Positions 6,741 through 50,627 of a DNA stretch of 64,000 bases are shown piece after piece. The position numbers were made by a program, and so were the translations under genes. Numbering within the stretch: the first letter of the stretch is position 1; each line of letters opens with the position of its first letter. The notes beneath the pieces are model-generated. The model did not search any database, was not told where the DNA came from, and was given only the letters and a program-made list of their open reading frames with translations. Origin of the DNA: Gluconobacter sp. Dm-62 (GTDB taxonomy: Bacteria > Pseudomonadota > Alphaproteobacteria > Acetobacterales > Acetobacteraceae); contig NZ_JAERLY010000005.1 of assembly GCF_018256155.1 (NCBI RefSeq), positions 62,001 through 126,000 of the forward strand, written 5' to 3'.

Positions 6741-7844
<1,104 letters not shown>

Positions 7845-15696: not shown

Positions 15697-15722
15697 CGTT
15701 CCAAACTCTCGGAAAACCGCGA

Positions 15723-24609: not shown

Positions 24610-24614
24610 TGATA

Positions 24615-33523: not shown

Positions 33524-34543
33524 TTATATGCTTCCCATGAGAACCGCGGTGTCGATCATCCTGTTCGAGAACCCCCATTCGTTATCGTACCAGCTACAGA
33601 TATGAACCATCTGGCCTTTCTGAATGAGGGTCGTCTGCGTCGCATCAAACGTGGAGGATGCAGGGCTGTGGTTGAAGTCGCTGCTGACCAGCATTCCGTC
33701 GCTGTAATCCAGTATCCCCGCGAGAGACCTCTTGGACGCCTCGTGGAAAACCGCGTTCACGTCCTCCACAGATGACGGAGCACGTGATGGCAGGAAATCA
33801 AGTGCGACCATTGAGACGTTCGGCGTCGGGACACGCAGCGACGATCCGGCCAGCCGTCCCCTGAGATGCGGCAGGACAAGATCGATCGCCTTGGCCGCGC
33901 CCGTGGACGTCGGAACCATGTTCAATCCGGCGGCCCGCGCGCGCCGCAAGTCACGATGCCTGCGATCCACGATCTGCTGGTCCCCGGTATAAGAATGGAC
34001 CGTCAGCATGTAACCGCATTCGATACCGAACGCTTCGTCCACAACCTTCACAAGTGGCGCCAGACAGTTGGTTGTGCAAGAACCGTTCGAGACGACAGTC
34101 ATGCCCGGCCGGAGAGCGTCATTATTTACGCCATACACGATCGTCGCATCAACATCACTTGCCGGAGCAGAGATAAGGACTTTCCGCGCTCCCGCCTGCA
34201 ACAGAGGCTGCACGGCCTGTTTCGATGTAAAAAGCCCCGAGCATTCCATGACGACATCCACACCATCGAGGGCCACCGCCGCCGGATCACGCTCCGACGA
34301 AATGCGGATCGGCCCGTAATGCCTGCCTTGCGCCTCAATCCTCAGCTGGTCGCCTTCAAGCTGGACCTTTCCTGAAAACCGGCCGTGAATGCTGTCGTAA
34401 ACCAGCATGTGAACCTTGTCTTCAACACTGCCTGGACCATTGATAACAACGGGAACAATGTCGGTCCGACCGCTCTCGATAATACTTCTCAAAGTCAGAC
34501 GCCCTATCCGTCCAAATCCATTGATCCCGATCTTGACTGCCAC
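33524..34543 (-). CDS. gap: GAPDH-family aldehyde dehydrogenase (glyceraldehyde-3-P or erythrose-4-P type)
   Basis: This 339-residue enzyme has KIGINGFGRIGRL at the start, NGSCTTNCLAPL with the catalytic Cys near residue 155, HSYTGDQQIVDRRHRDLRRA near 180, and WYDNEWGFSNRM at the end. It oxidises an aldose phosphate with NAD(P) and phosphate or water. Compared with canonical GAPDH, the catalytic motif reads SNGSC instead of SNASC, and a divergent VEDKVHMLVYDSIHGRF region precedes it, so erythrose-4-phosphate or another substrate is possible. The start is GTG 34543, preceded by GGAGA with good spacing; the frame opens at 34681. It is the probable last gene of the ACAD-ETF-MFS transcript. Confidence 0.85.
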   Translation of the reverse strand: MAVKIGINGFGRIGRLTLRSIIESGRTDIVPVVINGPGSVEDKVHMLVYDSIHGRFSGKVQLEGDQLRIEAQGRHYGPIRISSERDPAAVALDGVDVVMECSGLFTSKQAVQPLLQAGARKVLISAPASDVDATIVYGVNNDALRPGMTVVSNGSCTTNCLAPLVKVVDEAFGIECGYMLTVHSYTGDQQIVDRRHRDLRRARAAGLNMVPTSTGAAKAIDLVLPHLRGRLAGSSLRVPTPNVSMVALDFLPSRAPSSVEDVNAVFHEASKRSLAGILDYSDGMLVSSDFNHSPASSTFDATQTTLIQKGQMVHICSWYDNEWGFSNRMIDTAVLMGSI

Positions 34544-34610
34544 GATACCGTCTCCGTTTGGTGCCCCGATGTCAGGGCCTGTCCTGGTGTGAGTGAGGAT
34601 TGGCCTGCGC

Positions 34611-36017
34611 TTACAGGCCGATGCGATTGAGGGGTTTGCCAGCCATGAGGTTCCGCTCGATCTGCTCAAGCGACACGCCACGCGTTTCGGGCACGAACTT
34701 CATCGTCACGAAAATGAAGACGAGGTTCAGGAGCGCGTAGAGCCAGAAAGTCTGCGCATTTCCCATTGCCGTGAGAAGCGACAGGAACGTGAGACCAACA
34801 ATCATGTTGGTGCCCCAGTTGGTGAAGGTGGAGCATGCGATGCCGAAGTCACGCCCCTTGATAGGCTGCACTTCAGAGCACAGGATCCACACCAGAGGCC
34901 CGGCGGAAAATGCAAACCCGACGATGAAGCACAGCAGCATCGCAACAGCCGCGTAACGCGCCAGATCGCTGTTACCCGTGCCGAAATACAGCAGCATGCC
35001 AACCGTAAACATGCCGAGCGCCATCATGATGAAGCCCGCGATCAGCATGGGCCGCCGGCCCCAGCGATCGACATATCCAATGGCAATGAACGTGGAGAGC
35101 ACATTGACCAGCCCCACGATGACCGTGCCCCACAGCGCAGCGCTGGTGCCAAAACCCGCCATCTCGAAAATATGCGGCGCGTAGTACATGACCACGTTGA
35201 TGCCGGTGAACTGCTGGATCGCCTGAAGGGCCACGCCCAGATAGACCGCCCGGCGGAAATTGGGGTTTTTCTTGAACAGCGTGTAGCCACCGTCGGACTG
35301 CGCAAGCTGCTCGCGGATCTCGACGATCTCATCGCGGGCATGCGCATCATTGCCGCGCAAACCGTGCAGAACGTCGAAAGCCTCGTCATGCCGGCCCCGC
35401 AGAACCAGCCAGCGCGGGCTGTCCGGCAGGAACAGCACACCGATCAGAAACAACACTCCGGGAACACCCACGATCCCGAGCATCCAGCGCCACGACCCCG
35501 AATAAGCGAGCAACGCATCGGAAATGAACGCCACCAGAATGCCCACCGTAATCATGAGCTGATAGACGGAAATCAATGCGCCACGATGCTGCTGATGGGC
35601 GATTTCCGAGATGTAAAGTGGCGCGGTAAAGCTCGCGACACCGATCGCCAGCCCGAGGACGACGCGCCCGCCAATCAGCAGGGCGACAGATGGCGCCAGC
35701 GCGCACATCGCCGATCCGGAAATGAAAAGCAGTGCCGAAATGATCAGCAGTTTTTTGCGGCCCAGAATGTAGGACAGGCGCCCGCCACACAGCGCGCCCA
35801 GCGCTGCCCCGACCATCATGCCGGAGACAATGCACTCCTTGCCGAAATCATTGACCTGAAACTCAACCCCGATGAATTTCAGCGCTCCGGATATGACACC
35901 CAGATCCAGCCCGAACATCAGACCTGCCACCGCAGCCAGTGTGGCTACGAGGGCACTTCTGCCGTTGAGTGAAACGCGCGGAACGCTCTGTACAACGCCA
36001 ACGTCACTCATGACCAT
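34611..36017 (-). CDS. Sugar:proton symporter, MFS sugar porter family
   Basis: This 468-residue protein has 12 helices and the sugar porter signatures: GLDLGVISGAL near residue 37, LGRKKLLI in the 2-3 loop, PDSPRWLVLRGRHDEA near 200, QQFTGINVVMYYAPHIF near 265, and FVPETRGVSLEQIE at the C-terminus. It probably imports a hexose or pentose, or sorbose, with protons. It lies 96 bp after the ETF-quinone oxidoreductase and 67 bp before the GAPDH-family gene on the same strand, which links sugar uptake to this operon. ATG 36017 or 36011 could be the start. Confidence 0.9.
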   Translation of the reverse strand: MVMSDVGVVQSVPRVSLNGRSALVATLAAVAGLMFGLDLGVISGALKFIGVEFQVNDFGKECIVSGMMVGAALGALCGGRLSYILGRKKLLIISALLFISGSAMCALAPSVALLIGGRVVLGLAIGVASFTAPLYISEIAHQQHRGALISVYQLMITVGILVAFISDALLAYSGSWRWMLGIVGVPGVLFLIGVLFLPDSPRWLVLRGRHDEAFDVLHGLRGNDAHARDEIVEIREQLAQSDGGYTLFKKNPNFRRAVYLGVALQAIQQFTGINVVMYYAPHIFEMAGFGTSAALWGTVIVGLVNVLSTFIAIGYVDRWGRRPMLIAGFIMMALGMFTVGMLLYFGTGNSDLARYAAVAMLLCFIVGFAFSAGPLVWILCSEVQPIKGRDFGIACSTFTNWGTNMIVGLTFLSLLTAMGNAQTFWLYALLNLVFIFVTMKFVPETRGVSLEQIERNLMAGKPLNRIGL

Positions 36018-36113
36018 CTTCCTCTTCTTGATCTTCTTGCATGATCGGAAGAAACACTTCGGCAGACATGGATTCCGAACCCTGCATGGATGCCGTTACT
36101 TGGATATTTGGAC

Positions 36114-37763
36114 TTACATATTCGGGTAATTCGGGCCGTCCCCGCCCTGTGGCGGGGTCCAGACGATGTTCTGGGACGGATCCTTGATGTCGCAGGTCTT
36201 GCAGTGCACGCAGTTCTGGAAATTGATCTGAAAGCGCGGCTTGCCCGCATCTTCGACAATTTCGTAAACCCCGGCCGGGCAGTAACGCTGCGCCGGCTCG
36301 GCATAGACCGGCAGGTTCACCGTGATCGGAATATCAGCATTCCGAAGCTTCAGATGGCAGGGCTGACCTTCATGATGGTTGGTAAACGAAAACGCCACAT
36401 TGGTCGTCCGGTCAAAACTGAGCTTCCCATCCGGCTTCGGATAGTCAATCGGCGAAAAATCCGCTGCCTTCCCCGTCGCCGACGCATCGGTCTTATGATG
36501 ATGCAGGGTTCCAAACAAAGGCGCTCCCGTTACGGACGCCGTCCACATATCCAGACCGCCCAGCACAATCCCGCCCGCCAGTCCGAATTTTTCCCAGAGC
36601 GGCTTGACGTTCCGGACGGTCTTGAGATCGCTGGCAACCGGCCCTTCTCTCAGAGCAGTTTCATAAGCCGTGAGTTCATCGCCGCTCCGCTCCTCCCGGA
36701 TTGCCGCATGAGCAGCTTCGGCAGCGTGCATTCCCGAATAGATGGCATTATGGCTGCCCTTGATGCGCGGAACATTCACAAGTCCCGCGGAACAGCCCAG
36801 CAGCGCACCGCCGGGGAAAACGACTTTCGGGATGGATTGCCATCCCCCTTCCGAAATAGCGCGGGCGCCATAAGCAATCCGCTTTCCGCCTTCCAGCAGT
36901 CCAGCCATCAACGGATGATGCTTGAAACGCTGGAATTCCCGGTATGGGTCGAGATAGGGGTTTTCGTAGCTCAGATGCACGACAAACCCGACACAGACCT
37001 GATTGTTGTCCAGATGGTAAACGAACGCGCCACCACCGGCATTGCGCCCCAGAGGCCAGCCCATCGTGTGCACAACCGTGCCGGGTTTGTGCTTTGCCGG
37101 GTCCACCTCCCAGATTTCCTTGAGGCCAATCCCGAATTTCTGCGGGTCCTTACCGTCCGACAGACCGTAACGCTTCATAACCTGAAGCGCTAAAGATCCC
37201 CGCGCACCTTCGGCGATCAGCACATACTTTCCTGCCAGGATCATGCCGGGTTCGTAGTTCTCTCCCGGCGTGCCATCAGCGTTCCGCCCGAACTCGCCCG
37301 CGATCACGCCCCGGATTTCGCCTTTCCCGCCATACACAAGTTCACTGGCCGCCATACCGGGGAAAATCTCGACGCCCAGCCCTTCTGCTGTTTCGGCAAG
37401 CCAGCGGCAGACATTCCCCAGCGAGACGATGTAATTGCCGTGATTGTTCATGAAAGGCGGCATGAGCCAGTTGGGAAGACGTGTCTGGCCCTTCTCACCC
37501 AGAACATAGAAGCTGTCCGTCTCCACCGGCACGGTGATCGGCGCGTTCATCTCCCGCCACTCCGGCAGCAGGACGTTGAGCGCGCAGGGATCAATGATCG
37601 CGCCGGAGAGGATGTGGGCGCCAACCTCGGATCCCTTGTCCAGCACGACGACGGACAGGTCCGGGTCTAGCTGCTTGAGACGGATGGCAGCGGACAGGCC
37701 TGCGGGTCCAGCGCCGACGATGACGACGTCATAGTCCATGCTTTCGCGTTCAATCGCCGTCAT
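36114..37763 (-). CDS. etfD: Electron transfer flavoprotein-ubiquinone oxidoreductase
   Basis: This 549-residue membrane-associated flavoprotein passes electrons from ETF to ubiquinone. It has the FAD-binding VVIVGAGPAGLSAAIRL near residue 12 and a C-terminal 4Fe-4S ligand set: RYCPAGVYE, then CVHCKTCDIKDPSQNI. The final PPQGGDGPNYPNM is a family trademark. It begins 43 bp after etfA. ATG 37763 is supported by GGGAGAA seven bases upstream; the frame opens at 37784. It connects the acyl-CoA dehydrogenase of this operon to the respiratory chain, which in Gluconobacter ends in quinol oxidases. Confidence 0.95.
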   Translation of the reverse strand: MTAIERESMDYDVVIVGAGPAGLSAAIRLKQLDPDLSVVVLDKGSEVGAHILSGAIIDPCALNVLLPEWREMNAPITVPVETDSFYVLGEKGQTRLPNWLMPPFMNNHGNYIVSLGNVCRWLAETAEGLGVEIFPGMAASELVYGGKGEIRGVIAGEFGRNADGTPGENYEPGMILAGKYVLIAEGARGSLALQVMKRYGLSDGKDPQKFGIGLKEIWEVDPAKHKPGTVVHTMGWPLGRNAGGGAFVYHLDNNQVCVGFVVHLSYENPYLDPYREFQRFKHHPLMAGLLEGGKRIAYGARAISEGGWQSIPKVVFPGGALLGCSAGLVNVPRIKGSHNAIYSGMHAAEAAHAAIREERSGDELTAYETALREGPVASDLKTVRNVKPLWEKFGLAGGIVLGGLDMWTASVTGAPLFGTLHHHKTDASATGKAADFSPIDYPKPDGKLSFDRTTNVAFSFTNHHEGQPCHLKLRNADIPITVNLPVYAEPAQRYCPAGVYEIVEDAGKPRFQINFQNCVHCKTCDIKDPSQNIVWTPPQGGDGPNYPNM

Positions 37764-37806
37764 GACTTTTCTCCCTGTCCGCACGTGATACCGAGGCTGC
37801 GCATGA

Positions 37807-38733
37807 TCAGATCTTTGCTGTCAGTTCGGGCAGGATGGTGAACAGGTCCCCAACCAGCCCGTAATCGGCAACCTGAAAAATCGGGGCATCCTCGTCCTTG
37901 TTGATCGCAACAATCACGCGGGAGTCCTTCATGCCCGCGAGATGCTGGATGGCGCCCGAGATGCCGACCGCGATATAAAGGTCCGGCGCCACGACTTTGC
38001 CGGTCTGCCCGACCTGCCAGTCATTGGGCGCATAGCCCGCATCGACCGCCGCGCGGCTTGCGCCGACCGCAGCGCCAAGCTTGTCCGCAAGAGTGGTAAT
38101 GGCGTCGAAGTTTTCCTTCGACCCGAGGCCACGTCCACCAGAGACGATAATCTTGGCGGATGTCAGGTCCGGGCGTTCGGATGCGACCGTCTTGTCCTCG
38201 ACCCACTGTGACAGGCCGGGATCAGCCGGAACGCTGGCGGCTTCGACGGAGGCACTCCCGCCGCCCTGTGCAGCCGTGAACGCCGCTGTGCGGACCGTGA
38301 AGACCTTGACGGGATCGGATGAACGGATCGTCTGGATCGCATTGCCCGCGTAGATCGGACGCTCGAAAGTGTCCGCGTCCTGAACGGCTGTCACTTCAGA
38401 CAGGACCATGACGTTCAGGAGTGCTGCGGCACGCGGCAGCACGTTCTTGGAAAATGCCGTCGCACCCGCTGCGATGTGGCTGTAGTCTTTGGCCAGCGAA
38501 ACGATGAGCGCGCTGACGGGCTCGGCAAGGCCATGCGCCAGAGACGCATCATCCGCCACGAGCACCTTCGACACACCCGCCAGTTTCGCCGCCTCGTCGG
38601 CCGCTGCCGCGCAGTTCTCGCCCGTGACGAGAAAATGCACATCGCCCAGCGTGGCAACCGCTGTCAGGGCCTTGGCGACCGTATCCGTCCCAAGACGCCC
38701 CTCATTGACTTCGGCAAGTAGCAGAACAGACAT
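37807..38733 (-). CDS. etfA: Electron transfer flavoprotein alpha subunit
   Basis: This 308-residue subunit carries FAD in the C-terminal domain: [13 protein letters not shown] near 195, [13 protein letters not shown] near 220, [20 protein letters not shown] near 240, and [19 protein letters not shown] at the end. With EtfB it accepts electrons from acyl-CoA dehydrogenases. Its ATG shares one base with the etfB stop (TGATG at 38733), indicating tight coupling. Confidence 0.95.
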
Positions 38734-39494
38734 CAGAGGACTCCTGCTTCATTCTTCAGTTTGGACACCAGCTCATCGACAGACCCGACCTTCACCCCGG
38801 CCTGACGCTGCGGTGGCTCAACTGTCTTCAGAACAGTCAGACGCGGGCGAACCGCGACGCCGAGAGTGTCGAGCGACACCTCTTCAAGCGGCTTTTTCTT
38901 GGCCTTCATGATGTTGGGCAGCGCCACATAGCGAGGCTCGTTGAGACGCAGATCCGTTGTCACAACGGCGGGAAGATTCAGCCTGATGGTCTGAAGACCA
39001 CCATCGACCTCACGCGTCACGAGTGCAGACCCGTCCTCAACCGTCAGGGCCGAAGCAAATGTGCCCTGCCCCCAGCCCAGCAGAGCGGCGAGCATCTGGC
39101 CGGTCGCGTTCATATCGTTGTCGATGGCCTGCTTACCCGCGATCACCAGGCCCGGCTGTTCGTTCGCGACAACCCTGCTCAGGATCTGCGCCACTGCGAG
39201 CGGCTCCAGATCCATATTCACGTCATCCGTTGCTGTGACGAGAATGGCGCGGTCCGCTCCCATCGCAAGAGCAGTCCGCAGCGTATCCTTCGCCTGCGCA
39301 ACCCCGATGGAGACGACGACCACTTCTGTCGCCACACCTTTTTCCTTGAGACGAATGGCCTCTTCGACCGCGATTTCGTCAAAGGGGTTCATGGACATCT
39401 TGACGTTCGCCAGATCGACGCCAGACCCATCCGGCCGGACGCGGATGCGGACGTTATAGTCGACGACCCGTTTCACAGGGACGAGGATCTTCAT
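38733..39494 (-). CDS. etfB: Electron transfer flavoprotein beta subunit
   Basis: This 253-residue subunit starts [18 protein letters not shown], the classic EtfB start, with [20 protein letters not shown] near 40 and [16 protein letters not shown] near 195. It binds AMP and docks to dehydrogenases. The frame opens at 39572, but ATG 39494 matches the family. It lies 14 bp after the TIM-barrel gene in the same operon, which starts with an acyl-CoA dehydrogenase. Confidence 0.95.
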
Positions 39495-39508
39495 GATACT
39501 CTCCGTTC

Positions 39509-40366
39509 TCAGCAGATATCGCGGAAGCGCTGTATCATCACATCCAGCACTTCGGCCGGATCGCGCTTCCACCAGTTGTTTGCAGAAAAAATCTCGACTT
39601 CGCAGAACCCGTCATATCCCGCGCGCTCCACCCCCGCGCGCAGACCTCTCAGATCTGCCACGCCGTCCCCCATCATTCCGCGATCCAGCAGAAAATCCGT
39701 CGTGGGAACCAGCCAGTCACACAGATGGAACCCCATGATGCGCGTCCCTGCCCGTTCAAGCTGGCGGGGAAGATCGGTGTCCCACCACACGTGATAGACA
39801 TCGACCGCCACACCCAGCGTGTCGGAATTGAGAACGTCGCAGATATCCAGGGCATCACGCAGCGTCGGCAGGCAGGACCGATCCCCGCCATACATCGGAT
39901 GCAACGGCTCCAGAGCCAGCTTGACGTCCCGTTCGGACGCATAATCCAGCACCGCAGAGAGACGATCCGTGACAATATCGAGGCTCTCCCTGACGCCTTT
40001 GGTGCCGGGTTCAACGCCGCCCACGACGATGGTCAGGATCTTTCCTCCCAGATCAGCGGTCTCGTCGATGGAACGATGGAAATCATCCACGACCGCCTGC
40101 CGTCCGTGTGGTGCCAGAGGCCCCACGAGAAACGGTGAACGGCACAGCCCCACGACCTCCACTCCGGCCCGCCGGGCGTACTGCCCGATGGCCGAAGCCC
40201 GGCCCTGAAGTTCCGGACGCCAGAAAACGATGCCGCCGATGCCACGCTCGGCGCAGGCGTCGATCATCCGTTCAGCGGACCATCCAGCCCCTGCCCCCGG
40301 CATATTATGGCCAAGGGTCGCGGTATTCAGGGCCAGCGCGGAATGATCATGGGTGAAGTCGCGCAT
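39509..40366 (-). CDS. Sugar phosphate isomerase/epimerase-type TIM barrel protein
   Basis: This 285-residue protein has the AP-endonuclease-2/xylose-isomerase-like TIM barrel: [13 protein letters not shown] near residue 12, [12 protein letters not shown] near 150 with the metal-binding Glu, [12 protein letters not shown] near 187, and [14 protein letters not shown] near 255. It likely binds a divalent metal and rearranges a sugar, sugar acid or cyclitol. It overlaps the DUF993 gene by one base (TGATG), and DUF993 with such barrels recurs in sugar catabolic clusters. Substrate unknown. Confidence 0.8.
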
Positions 40367-41517
40367 CAGTCAGCCCCATAGAGCGACAGAAGCGAATTCA
40401 TGCGGCGGACGGCCAGTTCCGGATTACGGAGCAGGCCGCAGCCATCCGCCAGCCGGAAGATCTCCGTGAAATACGGCAGCGGCCGCATGGACTGCGCACC
40501 GCCCAGCATGATGAAGTGATCCTGAAAGCCGTTCAGCCAAGCCAGGAACACGACGCCCGTTTTGTAATACTGGGTCGGAGCCTTGAAGATCACCCGGGCC
40601 AGCGGAACCGTGGGATCCAGCGCCGCGCGGAAGGCGGCCTTGTCGCCTTCGCCGAGTTTGCTCACCGCATAGGCGGCCAGCGGCGCCAGCGGATCGAACA
40701 CGCCCAGAAGCGCGTGGCTGAAACCCTGCTCGTCGCCTTCGATCAGTTCCGGATAATTGAAGTCATCCCCGGTATACATTTTCACGCCTGCCGGAAGCAG
40801 ACGGCGCATCCGGATTTCCTTGTCCTTGTCCAGAAGGGAAATCTTGATGCCGTCGACCTTGGAGACGTTCTGCCCGATCATCTCAAGTACGGTTTGCAGA
40901 GCCTCGTCGAAGCTGTTCGTGCCCCAGTATCCGGCCAAAGCGGGATCAAACGCCTCACCCAGCCAGTGCAGGACGACTGGCTCGTCACAGGCTGAAAGAA
41001 CTTCGCGGTAGACGCGCAGATAATCCGCCGGTCCCTTCGCGACCCGGACCAGCGCCCGGCTCGCCATCAGGATGATCCGGCCACCAACCGCCTGAATGGC
41101 TTCGACCTGTTCCAGATAGGCTCGGATGACCGCATCCACATCCCGCACGCCTGCCGGGTCCAGATGATCGGTGCCACAGCCATTGACGACATCGGCATCC
41201 GGCAGTTCCGCCTTCGTGCGGCGGATCAGTTCCAGCGCCATCGGCCAGTCCAGACCCATGCCACGCTGGGCCGTGTCCATCGCTTCGGCGATACCGAGCC
41301 CAAGATCCGCAAGGTGGCGGCGGAACGCCATCGTCTTGTCCCAGTCGATGGTACCGGGGCCGGACGGCGCGCTACCCGTATAGGGATTGGCGACGACATG
41401 GGCCGCCGAATAGACGATGCGGGCGGGATTGCGCCCCAGCACACCTGTCGGTGCGGGGGTTCCGATCAGGTGATAGTCCGTCTTCCGGCCGGTTTCATCG
41501 GGAAGAATGATTTTCAT
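40366..41517 (-). CDS. DUF993 protein (dihydrodipicolinate synthase-like aldolase fold)
   Basis: This 383-residue protein matches DUF993, a poorly characterised family with a DapA-like TIM barrel. Visible features include CGTDHLDPAGVRDVDAV near 114, RIILMASRALVRVAKGP near 147, GDDFNYPELIEGD near 250, and a plausible Schiff-base Lys in DGIKISLLDKDKE near 225; the catalytic residue is inference. Members often sit with isomerases and dehydrogenases in sugar or sugar-acid catabolic operons. Here it lies 8 bp after an SDR and overlaps a TIM-barrel gene. An aldolase-like cleavage of a keto acid is plausible. Confidence 0.75.
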   Translation of the reverse strand: MKIILPDETGRKTDYHLIGTPAPTGVLGRNPARIVYSAAHVVANPYTGSAPSGPGTIDWDKTMAFRRHLADLGLGIAEAMDTAQRGMGLDWPMALELIRRTKAELPDADVVNGCGTDHLDPAGVRDVDAVIRAYLEQVEAIQAVGGRIILMASRALVRVAKGPADYLRVYREVLSACDEPVVLHWLGEAFDPALAGYWGTNSFDEALQTVLEMIGQNVSKVDGIKISLLDKDKEIRMRRLLPAGVKMYTGDDFNYPELIEGDEQGFSHALLGVFDPLAPLAAYAVSKLGEGDKAAFRAALDPTVPLARVIFKAPTQYYKTGVVFLAWLNGFQDHFIMLGGAQSMRPLPYFTEIFRLADGCGLLRNPELAVRRMNSLLSLYGAD

Positions 41518-41525
41518 GACCGTTC

Positions 41526-42293: not shown

Positions 42294-43432
42294 GCCCGTG
42301 CGCCTTTACGGAGCAGTTCACGCGCGATGATCATGCGCTGGATCTGGTTTGTGCCTTCATAGATCTGGGTGATCTTGGCATCACGGTACAGACGCTCGAC
42401 CTCGAAGCCACGGATATAGCCCGAGCCACCGAAAACCTGCACGGCATCGGCCGTCCGCGCCACCGCCATGTCACCGGCAAAGCACTTGGCCATGGAGCAC
42501 GCGCGCGTCGCATCCTGCCCACGATCGATCTTCGTGGCCGCTGAATGGACCAGAAGCCGTGCGGCCTCAATGTCCTTGGCCATGTCGGCCAGAAGCCACT
42601 GCACGCCCTGAAATTCGGAGATGTGCTTGCCGAACTGCTTGCGCGTTCCGGCATAATCCACGGCCGCTTCAAGCCCGGCCTGAGCAATCCCGACGGCCAG
42701 TGACGCAATCCCCACGCGCCCCTTGTCGAGCACGCTCATCATCATGTGGAAGCCACGGTTCATCTCGCCCAGCAACGCATCACTGCCCAGACGGACATCC
42801 GAGAAATCGAGCGCGCCGACCTGGCTCGCCCGCTGGCCCATCTTGTGTTCCTTGGGGCCGCGCTCGACGCCCTTGGCATGCAGATCCACGATGAAAATGG
42901 ACATACCGCGGTTGCCCGCTTCCTTGTCGGTCCGCGCCAGGACAAAGCCCGTATCGGCGACCGGCGCGTTATGGATCCAGATCTTGCCGCCGTTGAGGAC
43001 CCAGCCGTCGCCATCGCGCACGGCGGTCGTACGGATACCGGAGACGTCCGTACCAGCCTCGGGCTCCGTGATACAGTAGGCGACCTTGCGCTTCATGGAG
43101 AGGATGTCGGGCAGCATTTTCTGCTGCTCCGGCGTTCCGTGACGGACCAGAAGCGTGGAGATCAGCTCCACCAGACCGCACTGGTCGGCCACGCTGGCAT
43201 AGCCACGGGAGAGTTCTTCCATCACGACCGCATAGGTCAGCGTATCGAAGCCCGGTCCGCCGAGTTCTTCGGGCACAGCAATGCCGAACAGGCCCAGCTT
43301 GCCCATTTCTTCATAAATTTCTGCTGGGAAGCGCTCTTCGCGGTCCAGCGCCTCTGCGGCGGGACGGATGACGTTATCCACGAAAGACCGTGTCGTTTCG
43401 CGGACTTCTTCCTGCATTTCGTTCAGAAACAT
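42290..43432 (-). CDS. Acyl-CoA dehydrogenase family flavoenzyme
   Basis: This 380-residue enzyme has ACAD motifs: CITEPEAGTDVSGIRTTA near 125, WIHNAPVADTG near 157, RKQFGKHISEFQGVQWLLAD near 265, and QIYEGTNQIQRMIIARELL at the end, with Glu of YEGT as the likely catalytic base. It dehydrogenates an acyl-CoA and hands electrons to ETF, encoded in the same transcription unit. The ATG at 43432 is preferred over 43444. An operator-like palindrome (43448-43469) lies just upstream. Gluconobacter is not known for fatty-acid oxidation, so a short-chain or hydroxylated acyl-CoA is possible. Confidence 0.9.
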   Translation of the reverse strand: MFLNEMQEEVRETTRSFVDNVIRPAAEALDREERFPAEIYEEMGKLGLFGIAVPEELGGPGFDTLTYAVVMEELSRGYASVADQCGLVELISTLLVRHGTPEQQKMLPDILSMKRKVAYCITEPEAGTDVSGIRTTAVRDGDGWVLNGGKIWIHNAPVADTGFVLARTDKEAGNRGMSIFIVDLHAKGVERGPKEHKMGQRASQVGALDFSDVRLGSDALLGEMNRGFHMMMSVLDKGRVGIASLAVGIAQAGLEAAVDYAGTRKQFGKHISEFQGVQWLLADMAKDIEAARLLVHSAATKIDRGQDATRACSMAKCFAGDMAVARTADAVQVFGGSGYIRGFEVERLYRDAKITQIYEGTNQIQRMIIARELLRKGARA

Positions 43433-43447
43433 AGCCGACTCCACATA

Positions 43448-43469
43448 AGTAACTAACTAGATGGTTACT
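43448..43469. promoter_or_regulatory. Operator-like palindrome A (ACAD operon)
   Basis: The left half AGTAACTAACTAG (43448-43460) is followed by a near-symmetric right half ending GTTACT (43464-43469). The outer arms AGTAAC and GTTACT pair exactly. The same 13-mer occurs in reverse at 46442-46454 before the CoA-transferase gene. It lies 16 bp before the acyl-CoA dehydrogenase start, suited to a TetR-type repressor. Confidence 0.65.
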
Positions 43470-43543
43470 ATTGAAAATTGTTAAAGACTACGGCTTTCGC
43501 CACACTCACCGATCAATCATTATTGAAGCTTTCCGAGCCGGTC

Positions 43544-44806
43544 CTAGCGAACCAGTACGGCTCTGAAATCATTGACGTTTGTCCCGGTCGGACCCGGCAC
43601 AAACAGGTCTCCCAGCGCCTCGAACGCGGTATAGGCGTCGTTCTCCATCAGGATATCCGTGGGGTTGAACCCCTGCTCCCGCAGGCGTTCCATGCTGACG
43701 CCATCCGCGAACGCCCCAGCGTTGTCTTCGGAACCGTCAATCCCATCGGTATCCGCCGCCAGAGCCGAGAACGGCAGCCCTTCCGCCGCCAGCGCAAAGG
43801 CCAGCAGGAACTCGGTATTGCGACCACCCCGACCACCCTGCCCGCGTATGGTGACGGTGGTCTCTCCGCCCGAGAGAATGACGACAGGGCGCCGGAAAGG
43901 CCGCCCCCGCAGAATGACTTCCCGTACCAGAGCGGCATGCACCTTGGCGACGTCCCGGGATTCCCCTTCGATCGCGTCCGACAGGATCACGGGATAAATC
44001 CCCGCCTGCCGCACCTTTTCCGCCGCAGCTTCCAGCGACAGATGTGCGGAGGCGATCACGTGCACCTCGTTTCTGCTGAAAATCGGATCGGTCGCGAGCG
44101 GAGCACGCCCTTCTTCCCCATCCAGCCAGGATTGGATCTTTTCGGGCAGACGCAGCTTCCACGTCTTTGCCAGACGACGGGCATCTTCCCGCGTCCCCAG
44201 ATCAGGCACGGTTGGCCCGGAAGCCACCTGTGCGGGATCGTCAAACGGAACATCCGACACCACGAGAGACACGACTTTCGCCGGTGCCGCAGCCGCGGCA
44301 AGCCGGCCGCCCTTGATGCCCGAGACCTGCTTACGGATGCTGTTCATGACGGAAATCGGCGCACCGGATGCGAGCAGGACGCGATTCAATTCGGCCTCGT
44401 CCTCAAGCGTCATGCCCGGCGGCGGGGATGGCAGAAGAGCCGACCCGCCACCACAGATGAGAGCCACGACGAGATCGTCCGGTCCCAGCCCCTTCACCGC
44501 CTCGAAAAGCGCCTCCGTGGCTTTCAGGCCGGCTTCGTCCGGCACCGGATGCGAGGCTTGCAAAACGCGGATGGATTGCGTCGGGCAGACATTGCCGTAA
44601 CGCGTGACCACCACGCCGCTGAGTGGTCCTTTCCAGACGCGCTCGAAAGCCGCGGCCAGCTGGGCCGCGCCTTTTCCCGCGCCAACCACAACCGTCCGTC
44701 CCTTCGGGGGCTCGGGCAGATGTGCCGCCAGGATCTGCTCCGGTTCGGCCGCGCCAACGGCGGCGTCGAAGAGTCCTGTCAGAAACATGCGGTCCTGAAG
44801 CATCAT
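43544..44806 (-). CDS. ttuD: Glycerate 2-kinase (TtuD/MOFRL family)
   Basis: This 420-residue kinase phosphorylates D-glycerate to 2-phosphoglycerate. It has VVVGAGKGAAQLAAAFE near residue 40, CGGGSALLPSPPPGMTLE near 120, MNSIRKQVSGIKGGRLA near 155, and the C-terminal MOFRL domain with GGETTVTIRGQGGRGGRN near 305. The frame opens at 44872; ATG 44806 has AGGA seven bases upstream. It follows the CoA-transferase gene 40 bp later, so the operon probably produces glycerate from a sugar-derived acid. Confidence 0.92.
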   Translation of the reverse strand: MMLQDRMFLTGLFDAAVGAAEPEQILAAHLPEPPKGRTVVVGAGKGAAQLAAAFERVWKGPLSGVVVTRYGNVCPTQSIRVLQASHPVPDEAGLKATEALFEAVKGLGPDDLVVALICGGGSALLPSPPPGMTLEDEAELNRVLLASGAPISVMNSIRKQVSGIKGGRLAAAAAPAKVVSLVVSDVPFDDPAQVASGPTVPDLGTREDARRLAKTWKLRLPEKIQSWLDGEEGRAPLATDPIFSRNEVHVIASAHLSLEAAAEKVRQAGIYPVILSDAIEGESRDVAKVHAALVREVILRGRPFRRPVVILSGGETTVTIRGQGGRGGRNTEFLLAFALAAEGLPFSALAADTDGIDGSEDNAGAFADGVSMERLREQGFNPTDILMENDAYTAFEALGDLFVPGPTGTNVNDFRAVLVR

Positions 44807-44846
44807 GGTCAGTTCCTGTCTGTCCGTCTGGCGCGAGGGGTGAAGG

Positions 44847-46418
44847 TCACAGGGGCAGTCCCATGGGTTCATCCTGGAACAGGGCCGCGTCCATGTCCTT
44901 CAGATCGGGCGAGACTTCGAGGTGAGCCGTTGCCTGATCCAGAATGTCCCGCTGCAAGTCGATCCCCGGCGCGATTTCAGTGACCGTCAGCTTGCCACCC
45001 AGCAGCCTCAGAACGCAACGCTCCGTCACATAAGTGATCTCCTGGCCGGTTTCGGTGGCACGGGCTCCAGAAAAGCTGACCTGAGACACTTCAGGCACGA
45101 TCTTGGCGATCTTGCCTTCCTTGTCGATCACAAGACGCCCGTCCTCGATATGCATTTTCGCCCCGGCATTGAAATTGCCAGAGAAGATGATGCGCTTTGC
45201 CCGCGCCGTGATGTCCACGAACCCCCCGGCCCCCGCCGTACGATGAGGCGTAGCGGCGAGACGGCTGACATTCACCGAGCCGTTCTGTCCGATCTCAAGA
45301 AAGGACAGCAGGGAGCAGTCGAAGCCGCCTGCCTGAAAATAGGAGAACTGGTGAGGCGATGCGACAAAGGCCTCGGCGTTACTGGCGCAGCCGAACTTGA
45401 AGTCCAGCAGGGGAATACCGCCCACGGCACCCTGCTCGATCACCCAGGTCACCGCGCCGTGGCGGCCCTCTTCCAGTAGGATACGAGGGACGTTTGCGGA
45501 AATGCCGAAGCCGATATTTACCGCCCAGCCCTGCTTCAGTTCCTGCGCCACGCGGCGTGCCATGACTTTGGATGGTCCGAAATCGGGGATGTCGAACGTC
45601 GAAAGCGGGCGGAAAATCTCGCCGGAAATGGCGGGATCGTAAGCCGTGGCGGTTGTCTGGAGTTGGTCCGGGGCCTCGACGATCACATCGACCAGAATAC
45701 CCGGAACCTTGACGTCATGTGGCTTCAGAGTGCCCTGTGCGGCCACCCGACGGACCTGCGCAATCACGAGGCCACCGTTGTTGTGCGCCGCCAGCGCCAT
45801 TTCCATGGCGCCGAGCGTGGCCCCTTCCTGCTCAAACGTCAGGTTGCCGTTCTCATCTGCCGTCGAGCCGCGGATGATGGCCACATCCGGACGCAATGCC
45901 GGGAAATACAGCCAGTCTTCGCCCTCAAAATCCATATGACGAACGAGCGGGTTCAGCCGTGCCGTCTCGTTCATCGCGCAGCCATCACGCTTCGGGTCCG
46001 CGAAGGTATCAAGCCCGACCTTGGTCAGCACGCCGGGACGCTTTGCGGCCCCTTCCCGCAGCATGTCGAAAATCACGCCGGACGGAACGTTATAGGCGGC
46101 CAGATCCTCCGCCTGAATCCGCTGCCAGATCAGTGGTGGCTCGGCATTGCTCGGCCCCGAAGGATAGGACCCGCCAATAATCTTCGTGATCATGCCCGGA
46201 CGGGCGAGATGGTCCACGCCCTTGGTACCGAACATGTCGCCCGCGGCAATCGGATGGATGGTCGTCAGCTTTGCCGGTGATTTCGTTGCCTCGAAACGCT
46301 GCCCCAGTGCCTCGAGAACCGCGTCAGGACACAGAAGTCCCGAAGACGAATTGACGGCAACCATGGCTCCGTCCTTGATGAGGCTCACAGCCTCGGCCGC
46401 TGTCCTGACTTTCATCAT
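44847..46418 (-). CDS. Acyl-CoA:acetate/3-oxoacid CoA-transferase (YdiF type)
   Basis: This 523-residue class I CoA-transferase moves CoA between carboxylic acids. The N-terminal half contains the NSSSGLLCP loop near residue 18; the C-terminal half has EQGAVGGIPLLDFKFG near 325 with the catalytic Glu, then GGFVDITARAKRIIFSGNFNAG near 395. Its start (ATG 46418, or 46415) is 18 bp from an operator-like element shared with the ACAD operon. With ACAD, ETF and glycerate kinase, it probably activates a sugar-derived or short-chain acid as a CoA ester. Confidence 0.9.
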   Translation of the reverse strand: MMKVRTAAEAVSLIKDGAMVAVNSSSGLLCPDAVLEALGQRFEATKSPAKLTTIHPIAAGDMFGTKGVDHLARPGMITKIIGGSYPSGPSNAEPPLIWQRIQAEDLAAYNVPSGVIFDMLREGAAKRPGVLTKVGLDTFADPKRDGCAMNETARLNPLVRHMDFEGEDWLYFPALRPDVAIIRGSTADENGNLTFEQEGATLGAMEMALAAHNNGGLVIAQVRRVAAQGTLKPHDVKVPGILVDVIVEAPDQLQTTATAYDPAISGEIFRPLSTFDIPDFGPSKVMARRVAQELKQGWAVNIGFGISANVPRILLEEGRHGAVTWVIEQGAVGGIPLLDFKFGCASNAEAFVASPHQFSYFQAGGFDCSLLSFLEIGQNGSVNVSRLAATPHRTAGAGGFVDITARAKRIIFSGNFNAGAKMHIEDGRLVIDKEGKIAKIVPEVSQVSFSGARATETGQEITYVTERCVLRLLGGKLTVTEIAPGIDLQRDILDQATAHLEVSPDLKDMDAALFQDEPMGLPL

Positions 46419-46436
46419 GTTCCAATGCCTTTGTAT

Positions 46437-46458
46437 ATAACTAGTTAGTTACTATAAT
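46437..46458. promoter_or_regulatory. Operator-like element B (CoA-transferase/glycerate kinase operon)
   Basis: CTAGTTAGTTACT at 46442-46454 is the exact reverse complement of the 13-mer in element A (43448-43460). Its flanks are AT-rich and partly symmetric (TATAA before, TATAA after). It sits 18 bp upstream of the CoA-transferase start and overlaps where its promoter should be, suggesting one repressor controls both operons. Confidence 0.65.
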
Positions 46459-46466
46459 TCCGAATA

Positions 46467-46496
46467 AAAAAGCCCGGCCCGACAGCACGGCTTTTC
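46467..46496 (-). terminator. Terminator of the sndh-sdh operon
   Basis: AAAAGCC at 46469-46475 pairs with GGCTTTT at 46490-46496; on the minus strand the stem runs into a T6 tract (complement of the A-run at 46467-46472). It lies about 40 bp after the sdh stop, separating it from the CoA-transferase promoter. Confidence 0.65.
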
Positions 46497-46535
46497 CGCT
46501 ATCCCGTGTTTTCAGATGATGCGGGAGACCCCGGT

Positions 46536-48131
46536 TCAGGCGTTCCCCTGAATGAAGTCTGCTGCCCGCTCGCTGATCATAATCGTCGCGGCATTCGTGT
46601 TGGACCCCAGCAGCGAGGGCATGACCGAGCTGTCGCAGATCCTGATGCCTTCAAGGCCATGCACCTTCAGGCGCGGATCGACGACGGACATGTCATCCCG
46701 GCCCATCTTGCAGGTGCATGTCGGATGATAGGACGTCCGGCCATGTTCCCGCGCATAGTCACGATACATCTGCATCGTCGGCTGTTTACCGCTAAAGAAA
46801 CAGGTCTTCCTGATGTGCTTCTGCAAGGAGGGCTGGGAGAACATCTCGTAGCTCAGCCGCACACCTTCCGCAGAGGTTTCAAGATCAGCGGGGTCGCCCA
46901 GAAAATTGGGATCGACCAGCGGATTGAGCCTCGGATCCGCCGAACGCAGCCGGACGGTTCCGCGTGACTTCGGCCGCAGCACATAGCTGTTCAGCGTGAT
47001 GCCGGACGTGCCTTTGGGAACGGACGTCACCCCTGCTTCCGCTCCCGCACCGGCGAGAAAATGGAACTGCAGATCAGGCACTTCCGAAGACGGGTTCGAG
47101 TACCAGAATGCACCGCCTTCAACCACGTTGGACGCAACGGGGCCCGAGTTGAACATCGTGTATTCAAGACCCGCCCAGAGCATCCAATGCAGCTTGCGGT
47201 ATTTGTCGAAGCTCTCATCCGTCTTAAGTTCAGCCACGATATCCACGCCGAAATGGTCCTGGAGGTTCTCCCCCACGCCAGGCAGATCCTGAACGACGGA
47301 AATCCCCTTTTCCCGCAGATGCGCGGCAGGACCGACGCCTGACAGCATCATCAGCTTTGGTGTTCCGATGGCGCCTGCGGTCACGACGATTTCCTGCGTG
47401 GCCTCGGCCGTCTCAAGAGTGCCATTCGCAATGTACTGCACGCCCGTAGCCCGCGTTCCATCGAACACGATCTTCAGAACCAGTGCACGCGTCACGACTG
47501 TGAGGTTTTTGCGCCCCAGAGCCGGACGCAGATATCCCACAGCCGTGGAGCAGCGCCGGTTGTTCCGGATGGTCATCTGATAGATGCCGGCTCCGGCCTG
47601 CGATGCGCCATTGAAGTCGGGATTGTAGGGCAGCCCCAGTTCCTGACAGCTCTGGACGAAGGCGCGGCTGGTAGGGTTCGGCTCTGCAAGATTGGAAACT
47701 CCCAGCGGTCCGTTCGTCCCATGCCAGTCCCCTGCGAAAATCGCATTTCCTTCGGAGCGGATGAAGTATTTCTGGACGTCCCTGAAGCTCCACCCATCAG
47801 CACCTTCCGCAGCCCAGCGGTCGAAATCGGACGGATGCCCCCGCGTGAAGACCTCCGCATTGATGGACGACCCACCACCCAGAACCCTTCCCTGCACATA
47901 AGGGATCTGCCGGTTATTCGCATTTTTCTGCGGTTCCGTCAGAAGATCCCAGGTGTGCGGGCCGGTGGTCATCTTCGCGAAACCGACCGGCATATGAATC
48001 AGAGGATGCGTGTCCCGTTTGCCCGCCTCGATGAGACAGACACGGACGGAAGGATTTTCGGAAAGGCGAGCTGCGAGAACACAGCCAGCCGAACCGCCAC
48101 CGACAACGATGTAATCAAAGCCGCTCGTCAT
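46536..48131 (-). CDS. sdh: GMC-family FAD oxidoreductase, probable L-sorbose dehydrogenase
   Basis: This 531-residue flavoenzyme has [19 protein letters not shown] at the start (FAD Rossmann), [17 protein letters not shown] near 80, [17 protein letters not shown] near 255, and [10 protein letters not shown] plus [13 protein letters not shown] at the C-terminus, where the His and Asn act in catalysis. It belongs with choline/alcohol dehydrogenases. The size and position directly after a 498-residue aldehyde dehydrogenase match the Gluconobacter L-sorbose dehydrogenase that makes L-sorbosone, as I recall. There is no signal peptide. Alternatives are choline or glycol dehydrogenase. Confidence 0.78.
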
Positions 48132-49627
48132 TACGAAATCCAGTGCGAACGTTTGCCAGTCTCGATATGGACAGACTTGATCTGCGTGTATTCCTCGACG
48201 CCATACAGGCCGGACTCACGCCCCCATCCCGACTGCTTGAAGCCACCCAGAGGCGTCTCGGGACCACCGCTCATGATGGTGTTGACCCAGAAACGGCCTG
48301 CGCGAACGCGACGCGTCACCGCCAGTGCCTTGTTGATATCCTTGCTCCAGACCGATGCGGCGAGGCCGTAAACCGTGTCATTGGCAATTGCGATCGCCTC
48401 ATCAACCGTATCGAAATGGAAGGATGCCAGAACCGGGCCAAAGATCTCGTCACGCGCGATACCCATGGAGGGCTTCACGTCAGTGAAGAGCGTCGGCTGG
48501 ATGTACTGGCCGTTGCCGAAATCGACGATCCCGCCACCGCAAAGGAGCTTGGCACCCTCGGCCTTGCCCTTCGCGATATAGTCAAGAATGGTCTTGTTCT
48601 GCGCTTCGGTCGTGATGGCGCCGATCTGCGTTTCCGGATCAAACGGGTCTCCGACGCGGATCTTTTCCATTTTCGCGACAACGAGACGCTCGAACTTCTC
48701 GGCAACGGACCGTTCAACGATCAGGCGGCTCGACGACACGCAGCATTGCCCGGTGTTGAAGCTGATCCCGAAGGCCACGGCATCGGCTGCGTCTTCAAGG
48801 TCACTGTCCGCAAACACCACGATGGGGTTTTTGCCACCCAGTTCGAGGCCGAGCTTCTTGAGGTTGCTGTCAGCCGCCGCATGAATGCAGGACTTCCCAA
48901 CTCCCGTGGAGCCGGTAAAGGACAGCATGTCGATGTCCTGATGCTCAGTCATGGCCTGACCGATCGTGCGACCCGTTCCCGTTACAACATTGAATACGCC
49001 TTTCGGCAGACCTGCATCCGCAAGAACTTCCGCCAGAAGAAGCGTCGTGGCGCTTGTCACTTCGGCAGGCTTCACGACCAGCGTGCAGCCGGAAGCGAGA
49101 ATGAACGGCGCGCGCTCGCACAGGATCATGAACGGGAAGTTCCAGGGCGTGATCAGACCAACAACGCCAATGGGTTCCCGCAGGACCATACCGAACAGCC
49201 CCCCCCCCAGATTGTTGAACGTATCACCATGCAGCAGACGTGCAGCACCGGCAGCCATTTCAAAACAGGCGATACAGTGATCGATCTCACCCTTGGCTTG
49301 ACTGATGGGTTTGCCGTTTTCGAGAACCTCCCAGTAAGCAATGTCGTCGCGGCGCTCGCGCAGCAGGCCCGCAGCCTTCAGAAGAACCGCGGCACGGTCC
49401 GCGGATGGCAGACCCGACCAGCTTCCATTCTCAAATGCGCGACGTGCAGCAGCTACGGCCTCGTCAAGGTCTTCACGGGTGCAACGCGGAATACGGGTGA
49501 CGGGAACATCATGAGCCGGCGAAGACCGATCGAAGAATTCCTTACCTGCGTGCCATTCTCCATCAATAAAGAATCCGAACTCACGCGGCTTTAACGGTAA
49601 AGATATATTTTTTGCGACAACATTCAT
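48131..49627 (-). CDS. sndh: NAD(P)-dependent aldehyde dehydrogenase, probable L-sorbosone dehydrogenase
   Basis: This 498-residue ALDH oxidises an aldehyde to an acid. It has [16 protein letters not shown] near 165, [15 protein letters not shown] near 240, [14 protein letters not shown] near 263 with the catalytic Glu, and [16 protein letters not shown] near 295 with the nucleophilic Cys. The length is exactly that reported for Gluconobacter L-sorbosone dehydrogenase, which forms 2-keto-L-gulonate. Its stop abuts the sdh start (TGATG). A run of ten G on the coding strand (49199-49208) encodes part of NLGGGLFG. The SDH/SNDH pair is divergent from a TetR regulator. Confidence 0.85.
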
Positions 49628-49946
49628 GAGACTTCTTCCTGCTGACTATGGGGCCGTCATCCCTTTTTTCAATGTACAGCCCGATTTTTATTCTTCTGAC
49701 CTGGAAACCCCGAGAGATATTACAACGTACGATTTCCGTTCCCGGACGATCCTCACTTGCATTTGACCGGAGGCGCTCGGGTTCTAACTTCCTAACGCCT
49801 AATGCACCGTATAGTTACTTACACATATCGCAGGGGTGCACCAGCATGAAATCACGTTACGTTGATATTTTTTCTCACTTTAAGTGTGATTTTATGGGCT
49901 GCTTTTCTTTTGGGGCGGTTTCCCTCAAAAAGAGCGTCCATGTTGA
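49628..49946. promoter_or_regulatory. Divergent promoter region, sndh-sdh / TetR regulator
   Basis: This 319 bp spacer is AT-rich and has no convincing gene. It contains TAGTTACT at 49812-49819, an 8-mer also present in operator-like elements A (as AGTAACTA) and B. The sequence around it is less palindromic. TetR genes commonly repress themselves and the divergent operon from such spacers. Confidence 0.55.
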
Positions 49947-50627
49947 GTGCGGAACAAGCCCCTGATGCCCCTTGAGAAAAGCAGACCGTCCTCCTCCTCT
50001 ACGAAAAAGCGTGTTAGGGACGCGGAGGCCACAAAATTACGCATTCTCGAAGCAGCCAAGAAAGAGTTTGCAAAGAATGGGCTTGAAGGCGCACGGGTCG
50101 ACGCAATTGCTCTGGATGCCAACGCAAACAAGCGCATGCTGTATCACTATTTCAAAAGTAAGGACGGGCTCTTCAGGACGGTTCTGGAACGAGAATATCT
50201 TAATATCCGGGCTGAAGAGACCAAGCTGGATCTTGAGAACCTACCACCCAGAACAGCTCTTGAAACGCTCGTTCGCTTTACATGGGAATACTACATTGCA
50301 AATCCCGAGTTCATTACCCTCGTAAACAGCGAAAATCTCTGCAAGGCCGCGCATATCAAGAACTCCCCTACCCTGAAGACGATCAGCCAGAAATTCGTTC
50401 GTCGTATCCAGTCACTTCTGGATCGGGGGGTTCGAGAAAACGTCTTTCGCGAAGGCATTGATGCTGCACAGCTGAACATCACGATTGCCTCGATAAATTA
50501 CTATTATTTTACGAACCGCTTCACCGGATCGGTAATCTTCGAGCGGGATTTTACGGCGCCCGAGGCGTTAAAAGAAAGAATTACCTTTAATATCGAAACG
50601 ATATGCCGTCTGGTTTGCAAGAACTGA
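49947..50627 (+). CDS. TetR/AcrR-family transcriptional regulator
   Basis: This 226-residue regulator has a TetR DNA-binding domain at about residues 25-75 (LRILEAAKKEFAKNGLEG, then ALDANANKRMLYHYFKSKDG) and a helical ligand-binding C-terminal half ending IETICRLVCKN. The style is that of members with a TetR_C-type domain (FTWEYYIANPEFITLVNSEN). The start may be GTG 49947 or ATG 49965; GGAA at 49951-49954 supports the latter. Divergence from sndh-sdh and shared operator-like elements nominate it as the local repressor of the sugar/CoA operons. Confidence 0.88.
   Translation: MRNKPLMPLEKSRPSSSSTKKRVRDAEATKLRILEAAKKEFAKNGLEGARVDAIALDANANKRMLYHYFKSKDGLFRTVLEREYLNIRAEETKLDLENLPPRTALETLVRFTWEYYIANPEFITLVNSENLCKAAHIKNSPTLKTISQKFVRRIQSLLDRGVRENVFREGIDAAQLNITIASINYYYFTNRFTGSVIFERDFTAPEALKERITFNIETICRLVCKN

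Follow-up and report, generated by a model that had tools for sequence, protein, structure and literature searches.

The gene cluster at 33524..50627 of the window (the whole stretch of 64,000 nucleotides that was analysed) raises the question why genes for L-sorbose oxidation lie beside genes for the dehydrogenation of acyl-CoA esters in Gluconobacter sp. Dm-62. A preliminary description had proposed a CoA-linked route for L-sorbose or a sugar-derived acid. Our tentative answer, held with slightly less than even confidence, is that TetR controls a regulon for the breakdown of a sugar-derived hydroxy acid in the form of its CoA ester.

Composition of the cluster

All genes named for the cluster were located by profile searches and structure-sequence matches at the following positions. 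The ORFs of the GAPDH-family protein, ETF beta, the ETF-ubiquinone oxidoreductase (ETF-QO) and glycerate kinase probably start too early.

33524..34546, minus strand: GAPDH-family protein (Pfam Gp_dh_N/C; GAPDH-I; syntenic within the genus); the ORF opens to 34681, with the start presumably near 34546
34611..36017, minus strand: sugar porter, MFS (Sugar_tr 427 bits; TIGR00879)
36114..37784, minus strand: ETF-QO, second copy of the genome (PF05187, PF21162)
37807..38733, minus strand: ETF alpha subunit (PF00766, PF01012)
38733..39494, minus strand: ETF beta subunit (PF01012; ORF opens to 39572)
39509..40366, minus strand: xylose-isomerase-like TIM barrel, relative of SMc04130 (3ju2) (PF01261; 3ju2/3qc0 E 2e-75)
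40366..41517, minus strand: DUF993 protein, putative lyase of DHDPS fold
41526..42293, minus strand: SDR of the PRK12745 group, 3-ketoacyl reductase-like (NF009386 above cut-off)
42290..43444, minus strand: acyl-CoA dehydrogenase (ACAD), short-chain type (PF00441/02770/02771; aligned to 6fah_C and 5ol2_C)
43448..43469: candidate TetR-type operator upstream of ACAD, AGTAACCATCTAGTTAGTTACT on the minus strand
43544..44872, minus strand: glycerate kinase, DUF4147/MOFRL type (PF13660, PF05161; start probably inside the ORF)
44847..46418, minus strand: family I CoA-transferase, YdiF-like (PF01144; 2ahu E 4e-102; Glu kept)
46436..46453: candidate TetR-type operator upstream of the CoA-transferase
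46536..48131, minus strand: SDH, GMC flavoprotein of L-sorbose dehydrogenase type (PF00732, PF05199)
48131..49627, minus strand: SNDH, L-sorbosone dehydrogenase (~97% identical to 7w5l, 498 aa)
49802..49819: weaker candidate operator copy in the TetR-sndh gap (11/16 consensus positions)
49947..50627, plus strand: TetR regulator, TetR_C_29 (PF17938, PF00440)

The described arrangement of three minus-strand units under a divergent TetR gene agreed with the genes and strands. No copy of the shared operator precedes the sugar porter, though, and it and GAPDH are therefore assigned to the third unit only tentatively.

All 498 residues of SNDH align with 7w5l, an L-sorbosone dehydrogenase of known crystal structure; a count by eye gave about 16 differences. 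The adjoining GMC protein of 531 aa is called SDH for its position beside SNDH, not for a match to an assayed enzyme. According to passages of two reports (PMC10602560, PMC8102297), SDH and SNDH of Gluconobacter convert L-sorbose to 2-keto-L-gulonate. The locus resembles this pathway in its SNDH (~97% identity) and in the GMC flavoprotein beside it; the pathway descriptions in these passages name no downstream CoA genes.

ACAD, CoA-transferase, ETF and ETF-QO are, by sequence, complete family members. The three domains of ACAD are present, the Glu of its YEGT motif is kept, and its closest matches are short-chain enzymes. In the alignment of the CoA-transferase with 2ahu its Glu matches a Glu of YdiF, which we take to be the catalytic residue.

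Fold matching assigned DUF993 to the dihydrodipicolinate synthase (DHDPS; class I aldolase) fold; the match lists were filled by DHDPS-type chains, and other TIM families may also match. The AlphaFold model has a pLDDT of 90.5. DUF993 has the TIM-barrel fold in common with the DHDPS/class I aldolase superfamily, but with only ~15% identity and ~90 additional residues, and it carries a putative Schiff-base lysine. Lys225 is invariant across 30 sequences; it aligned with a lysine of the DHDPS of the same genome, but in a profile alignment that was non-significant (E 0.16). DUF993 had been proposed as the cleaving enzyme, and by its class I aldolase fold it is likely a carbon-carbon lyase, with the cleavage itself presumed. 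SMc04132 (4dnh) of Sinorhizobium meliloti, 56-57% identical to DUF993, and SMc04130 (3ju2) belong to the same DUF993 and TIM families as the window proteins; both structures are titled hypothetical or uncharacterised. A passage of PMC12542648 lists SMc04133 as putative oxidoreductase. The name DUF993 was found in none of 5.39 million open papers.

Inheritance and regulation

Within the genus, DUF993 was found in 12 of 26 genomes, and a second ETF-QO in exactly the same 12, which bears out the proposed dedicated ETF/ETF-QO adjoining ACAD. The CoA-transferase and the only strong ACAD match were present in 11 of these carriers; in the twelfth the cluster begins at a contig end. The complete order from TetR to GAPDH was found in nine of the 11 other carriers (L032, L147, L149-L152, L154-L156), while the L153 locus stops before TetR and the L148 contig begins at DUF993. 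In these nine loci DUF993, ACAD and sdh-sndh, whose co-occurrence the preliminary description had suggested comparing, stand together. Judged from this distribution, the set from TetR to GAPDH is one unit, inherited together. In a cluster-free relative, broken pieces of ACAD and CoA-transferase adjoin an intact glycerate kinase.

The gene set recurs in other families (Sinorhizobium meliloti pSymA, Paracoccus, others), which rules out a cluster special to Gluconobacter. Sugar transporters and SDH/SNDH accompany the ACAD cluster also in distant groups. In other bacteria the DUF993/TIM pair occurs with a Gfo/Idh dehydrogenase and without CoA enzymes. In total, 64 loci with SDR and/or ACAD and 52 Gfo loci were compared, with counts limited to the stretches read; L052, L053 and L054 are the same contigs as L151, L148 and L156, duplicates that are included in the 64-locus, tree and operator counts, and S. 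meliloti is represented twice, by L132 and L134. After removal of L052-L054 and L134, 116 loci remained, 61 with SDR and/or ACAD, 52 with Gfo and none with both. The difference between Gfo and CoA gene content is one change on the tree and therefore one event. Within the stretches read, SDH was found in 47/64 SDR/ACAD loci and 0/52 Gfo loci, glycerate kinase in 22/64 and 2/52. Outside Acetobacteraceae the cluster frequently includes a crotonase (20 of the 64 loci), whereas none of the 25 Gluconobacter- and Acetobacter-type loci checked has one. SDR without ACAD (40% identity threshold) was found in 13 loci, some of them short stretches.

Related clusters contain a solute-binding protein of the D-allose/ribose receptor type (best PDB match 2rjo), which is not decisive for the substrate. 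The neighbours of the Gfo loci include an NMT1 receptor (24/52), an 'enolase' without family match (32/52) and a TctC receptor; these genes pointed to no substrate.

The palindrome GTAACYANNTRGTTAC lies upstream of ACAD and of the CoA-transferase, with a weaker copy between TetR and sndh. It was detected upstream of ACAD in 45 of 51 loci (control 0/51), outside Gluconobacter in 32 of 37 (control 0), and upstream of the CoA-transferase in 29 of 41 (control 0/41; 4/41 and no longer clean if three mismatches are allowed). Only 9/52 Gfo genes and 2/13 SDR genes of loci without ACAD are preceded by it. The weak TetR-sndh copy stands at the same position in L147 and L149-L152 with 11-12 consensus positions; in L032, L054 and L154-L156 the best scores are only 8-10. 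Scans of the locus for sigma-70 promoters and terminators gave a signal no higher than shuffled sequence. The cluster is apparently under one regulator, TetR, via the predicted shared operator. The co-regulation of the units claimed before is consistent with the palindrome before two units and the weaker copy before the third, as read from the sequence.

Proposed route and alternative explanations

The cluster has ACAD, ETF, ETF-QO and a 3-ketoacyl-type SDR in common with fatty acid beta-oxidation, and some relatives also have a crotonase. In contrast, sugar genes belong to the same regulon, and thiolase (Thiolase_C, PF02803) was found in none of the 26 genomes, with 12 of 14 controls positive; the claim that ordinary beta-oxidation is missing in the genus is borne out. 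Crotonase and MaoC hydratases are both absent from 8 of 12 cluster carriers. The other four have crotonase or MaoC elsewhere, including the genome of the window with one crotonase outside the cluster. No enoyl-CoA hydratase of either type was found in the window cluster, and no beta-keto acid cleavage enzyme among its proteins. Ordinary beta-oxidation was rejected, because thiolase was found in none of the 26 genomes and neither hydratase in 8 of 12 carriers.

L-sorbose is not supported as substrate of the CoA branch, since SDH and SNDH would turn it into 2-keto-L-gulonate, in which an ACAD should find no hydrogen on the alpha carbon. On the same chemical grounds 2-keto-L-gulonyl-CoA was rejected as ACAD substrate.

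For the preferred sugar-derived hydroxy acid, the sugar porter would import a sugar or polyol, and SDH and SNDH would oxidise its primary alcohol to the acid. The CoA-transferase would load CoA onto this acid. ACAD would take the alpha and beta hydrogens and pass the electrons via ETF and ETF-QO to ubiquinone; if the alpha or beta carbon bears a hydroxyl group, the product would be an enol, which would turn into a ketone with no need for a hydratase. Such a hydroxyl is probable because most carriers lack a known hydratase and thiolase. SDR and TIM-barrel isomerase would set the position of the ketone, DUF993, as relative of class I (Schiff-base) aldolases, would cleave the chain, and a three-carbon product would yield glycerate and then 2-phosphoglycerate. 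The GAPDH paralogue may have a role in gluconeogenesis. Substrate and cleavage by DUF993 within this route are what we infer. That a quinone-linked ACAD acting on the carbon chain of a CoA-bound sugar acid, a hydratase-free enol, DUF993 as a new Schiff-base lyase of the DHDPS superfamily and a second, CoA-free bacterial branch arriving at this cleavage via Gfo/Idh all hold jointly is rather unlikely.

As crotonase occurs in 20/64 loci and 13 SDR loci lack ACAD, the ancestral route may have included a normal hydratase, in which case the enol argument may apply to acetic acid bacteria only. Glycerate, the end product proposed earlier, agrees with the kinase in the window cluster; the link is weaker than apparent, because the kinase is present in only 22/64 loci within the stretches read and outlasts the loss of the other genes.

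By analogy, the closest precedent is CoA-linked deoxyribonate oxidation. The cluster of Klebsiella michiganensis, as given in passages of Price et al. (2019, PMC6365646), comprises CoA-synthetase, hydroxyacyl-CoA dehydrogenase, thiolase, CoA-transferase and glycerate kinase. There, too, a CoA-ester sugar acid is oxidised and cleaved, with CoA-transferase and glycerate kinase leading to 2-phosphoglycerate. In contrast to its first three enzymes, the window cluster has entry by CoA-transferase, an ACAD served by ETF and ETF-QO, a TIM isomerase and DUF993, and no thiolase was found in the genus. A variant of that route, from a 2-deoxy (or 2,3-dideoxy) sugar acid via CoA ester and 3-keto ester to glyceryl-CoA, is unlikely for the window. 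CoA-transferase and glycerate kinase genes also adjoin here, the SDR is of the 3-ketoacyl reductase group and crotonase is present in many related clusters; but deoxyribonate requires no ACAD, and the missing Thiolase_C and the eight carriers without crotonase or MaoC argue against it. To our knowledge, Claisen cleavage is not expected of a Schiff-base aldolase fold either.

Less probable again, SDH and SNDH would form a 2-ketoaldonate, e.g. 2-keto-L-gulonate, which DUF993 would cleave to hydroxypyruvate and glyceraldehyde; TIM barrel and SDR would turn the C3 units to glycerate for the kinase, and the CoA and ACAD genes would serve a second acid. SNDH shares ~97% identity with an enzyme that forms 2-keto-L-gulonate, enzymes of the DHDPS fold use 2-keto acids as substrates, the DHDPS entry 3c0j is by title a complex with hydroxypyruvate, and Gfo loci without CoA genes would be accounted for. 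However, in the genus ACAD and CoA-transferase are bound to the unit as tightly as the other genes, they carry the strongest operators, and SDH is missing in 17/64 SDR/ACAD loci within the stretches read.

These 17 loci, the weakest operator copy before sndh and the divergent or downstream sndh-sdh of some Acetobacteraceae loci (L033-L036, L061) would also suit a separate sorbose operon, loosely tied and co-located by history. This is very unlikely, as the nearest relatives retain the weak copy at a constant position and SDH occurs in 47/64 SDR/ACAD loci vs 0/52 Gfo loci. Least probable is an ordinary module for short-chain or branched acyl-CoA beside the sorbose genes by chance: ACAD is closest to short-chain enzymes and TetR regulators often accompany acyl-CoA genes, but thiolase and, in 8/12 carriers, hydratases are missing, sugar transporters and SDH/SNDH lie alongside in distant groups, and ACAD is lost jointly with the CoA-transferase.

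Literature and significance

In the open-licence literature we found no published pathway fitting the full gene set, no glyceryl-CoA with ACAD and glycerate kinase, and no glycerate kinase with ETF in Rhizobium. SMa1400-type gene names and sugar-acid names gave nothing relevant to the cluster there, and DHDPS family with ACAD, glycerate kinase and sugar nothing relevant by title. Where this literature joins sndh with an ACAD, the latter belongs to a study of Komagataeibacter caiA. The earlier statement that no such pathway is described stands for the full set, but for deoxyribonate a related CoA-linked route with glycerate kinase as its last enzyme has been described (passages of PMC6365646).

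The regulon offers a pathway context for DUF993, an operator for finding further members and a shortlist of substrates. Furthermore, natural loss strains of the cluster exist within one genus. For vitamin C fermentation, SNDH, used for 2-keto-L-gulonate, would sit in a regulon with possibly another natural purpose.

Gene content of the cluster

The window belongs to a Gluconobacter-like host genome of 3.46 Mb. The cluster consists of a minus-strand run of 13 genes and a divergent regulator gene.

Features of the cluster in the window, the run in transcription order
33524–49627 (−), whole run; first genes: L-sorbosone dehydrogenase (SNDH), L-sorbose dehydrogenase-type flavoprotein (SDH), CoA-transferase, glycerate kinase
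(−), continued: acyl-CoA dehydrogenase (ACAD), SDR, DUF993 (putative lyase), TIM barrel, ETF beta, ETF alpha, ETF-ubiquinone oxidoreductase (ETF-QO), sugar porter, GAPDH-family protein
49947–50627, TetR gene, divergent from the minus-strand run

Along its full length the SNDH matches 7w5l, the crystallised L-sorbosone dehydrogenase; counted by eye, about 16 of the 498 residues differ. Nearest to the ACAD are caffeyl-CoA and short-chain enzymes, and the YEGT glutamate is kept. The CoA-transferase is YdiF-like and has likewise kept a glutamate that lines up with one in YdiF. For the GAPDH paralogue (33524–34546) NADP use is possible, because ING was read by eye after strand 2, where IND is usual and its Asp is said to select NAD.

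Other genes in the window were recorded as well. The genes at 1876–8636 (FGGY carbohydrate kinase, extracellular solute-binding protein, ABC permease and ATPase, SDR) resemble an operon for the uptake of a polyol or sugar. At 8807–18200 lie two TonB-dependent receptors and a PepSY protein, together with a phosphoesterase, which is listed here.

13045–15522, phosphoesterase with PLipase_C_C domain

A biotin carboxylase, a carboxyltransferase A/B-domain protein and a LamB/YcsF protein (22808–28158) resemble a 5-oxoprolinase or related biotin-dependent set. An RND efflux set with AcrB-type pump, membrane-fusion protein and outer-membrane protein is located at 56520–62496.

Predicted operator

A palindrome close to AGTAACYANNTRGTTACT is common to the stretches upstream of ACAD and CoA-transferase. 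Its core pattern occurs without mismatch at two sites in the whole genome, both in the cluster; with one mismatch allowed, seven sites were found genome-wide versus seven for the reversed-pattern control. A weaker copy between TetR and sndh (49802–49819) is kept at the same place in the compared loci L147 and L149–L152, and scores just 8–10 of 16 in L032, L054 and L154–L156.

For the comparison across loci GTAACYANNTRGTTAC was searched with at most two mismatches in the 200 bases before each gene, with the reversed pattern as control. It precedes ACAD in 45 of 51 loci and CoA-transferase in 29 of 41, and was also found before Gfo/Idh genes (9/52), TetR (7/74) and SDR in loci without ACAD (2/13); the control gave 0 in every case. 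No match was detected before the unit-internal starts of DUF993 (0/119), TIM (0/114) and ETF beta (0/32). Outside Gluconobacter, the genus from which the motif was derived, it was present in 32 of 37 loci before ACAD and in 20 of 27 before CoA-transferase (control 0). This is good evidence, at the sequence level, for co-regulation of the units via the predicted operator.

Inheritance and loss within the genus

DUF993 is present in 12 of the 26 genomes of the genus, which share kinship and are not 26 independent events. A second ETF-QO was found in all 12 and in none of the other 14, ACAD matches better than 1e-40 and full CoA-transferases each in 11 of the 12 and none of the 14. The one exception is the carrier genome G305, whose contig (L148) starts at DUF993. 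Remaining ACAD-type matches in the 26 genomes were weak (E 3e-11 or worse). Besides the window, 9 of 11 carriers have the complete gene order; L148 is one of the two others, and the contig L153 stops before TetR. The cluster is one unit.

Glycerate kinase occurs in 16 of the 26 genomes, 11 times at the cluster and five times in genomes without DUF993. In four of these five (L142, L143, L144, L146) it lies near a saccharopine-type dehydrogenase, which flanks the cluster in the window, and the same 0.4 kb of DNA separates both genes; in L145 the kinase is located elsewhere. On the other flank, L143 and L144 have the phosphate transporter, which was not found in the 9 kb read of L142; in L146 its position falls past the contig end. 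At L142:8552–10933 an intact kinase stands between a broken ACAD piece and a broken CoA-transferase piece, the latter with an internal stop (genome search). An operator-like site with two mismatches lies beside the ACAD remnant (position 8925). The cluster was therefore lost at least in L142. The kinase evidently has other uses beyond the cluster, and therefore glycerate, the proposed end of the route, is weaker as proof of the cluster's product.

Two oxidation systems and comparison with known routes

In the family, 78 of 299 genomes contain DUF993. A scan of genome contigs confirmed at least 578 loci, of which the best 80 were kept. The Paracoccus versutus plasmid pTAV3 carries a cluster with sugar transporter, Zn-alcohol dehydrogenase, ALDH, GMC, aldo/keto reductases, CoA-transferase, crotonase, glycerate kinase, ACAD, SDR, DUF993, TIM and ETF. 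The same gene set, with gaps, recurs on pSymA-type plasmids of S. meliloti and on one plasmid of Janthinobacterium; for these no ETF was listed.

Among 120 DUF993 loci (14 from Gluconobacter, three being the same contig twice), SDR and/or ACAD occur in 64 and a Gfo/Idh dehydrogenase in 52; no locus has both, and four have neither. Genes were counted at ≥40% identity, and the stretches extended to about 29 kb at most, with many shorter. The split corresponds to one change on the DUF993 tree, and TIM is found in 60 of the 64 and 50 of the 52 loci. By gene content, the DUF993/TIM core is accompanied by two different oxidation systems. Since the same operator match occurs in some loci of both kinds, a shared effector is suggested. 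In a Chelatococcus locus a 462-aa protein annotated as 'enolase' (L138:9300–10688) adjoins Gfo/Idh and DUF993; at the limits used, neither Pfam nor NCBIfam gave a match to it. Such a neighbour occurs in 32 of the 52 Gfo-type loci.

The nearest published route found is CoA-linked deoxyribonate oxidation. Compared with this route, the cluster has an ACAD with its own ETF/ETF-QO, DUF993 and a TIM isomerase, and is without thiolase. Of the earlier proposal, a CoA-linked route for L-sorbose or a sugar-derived acid, the CoA-linked outline stands; L-sorbose as its substrate is not supported. We read the cluster as a putative variant form of CoA-linked sugar-acid catabolism.
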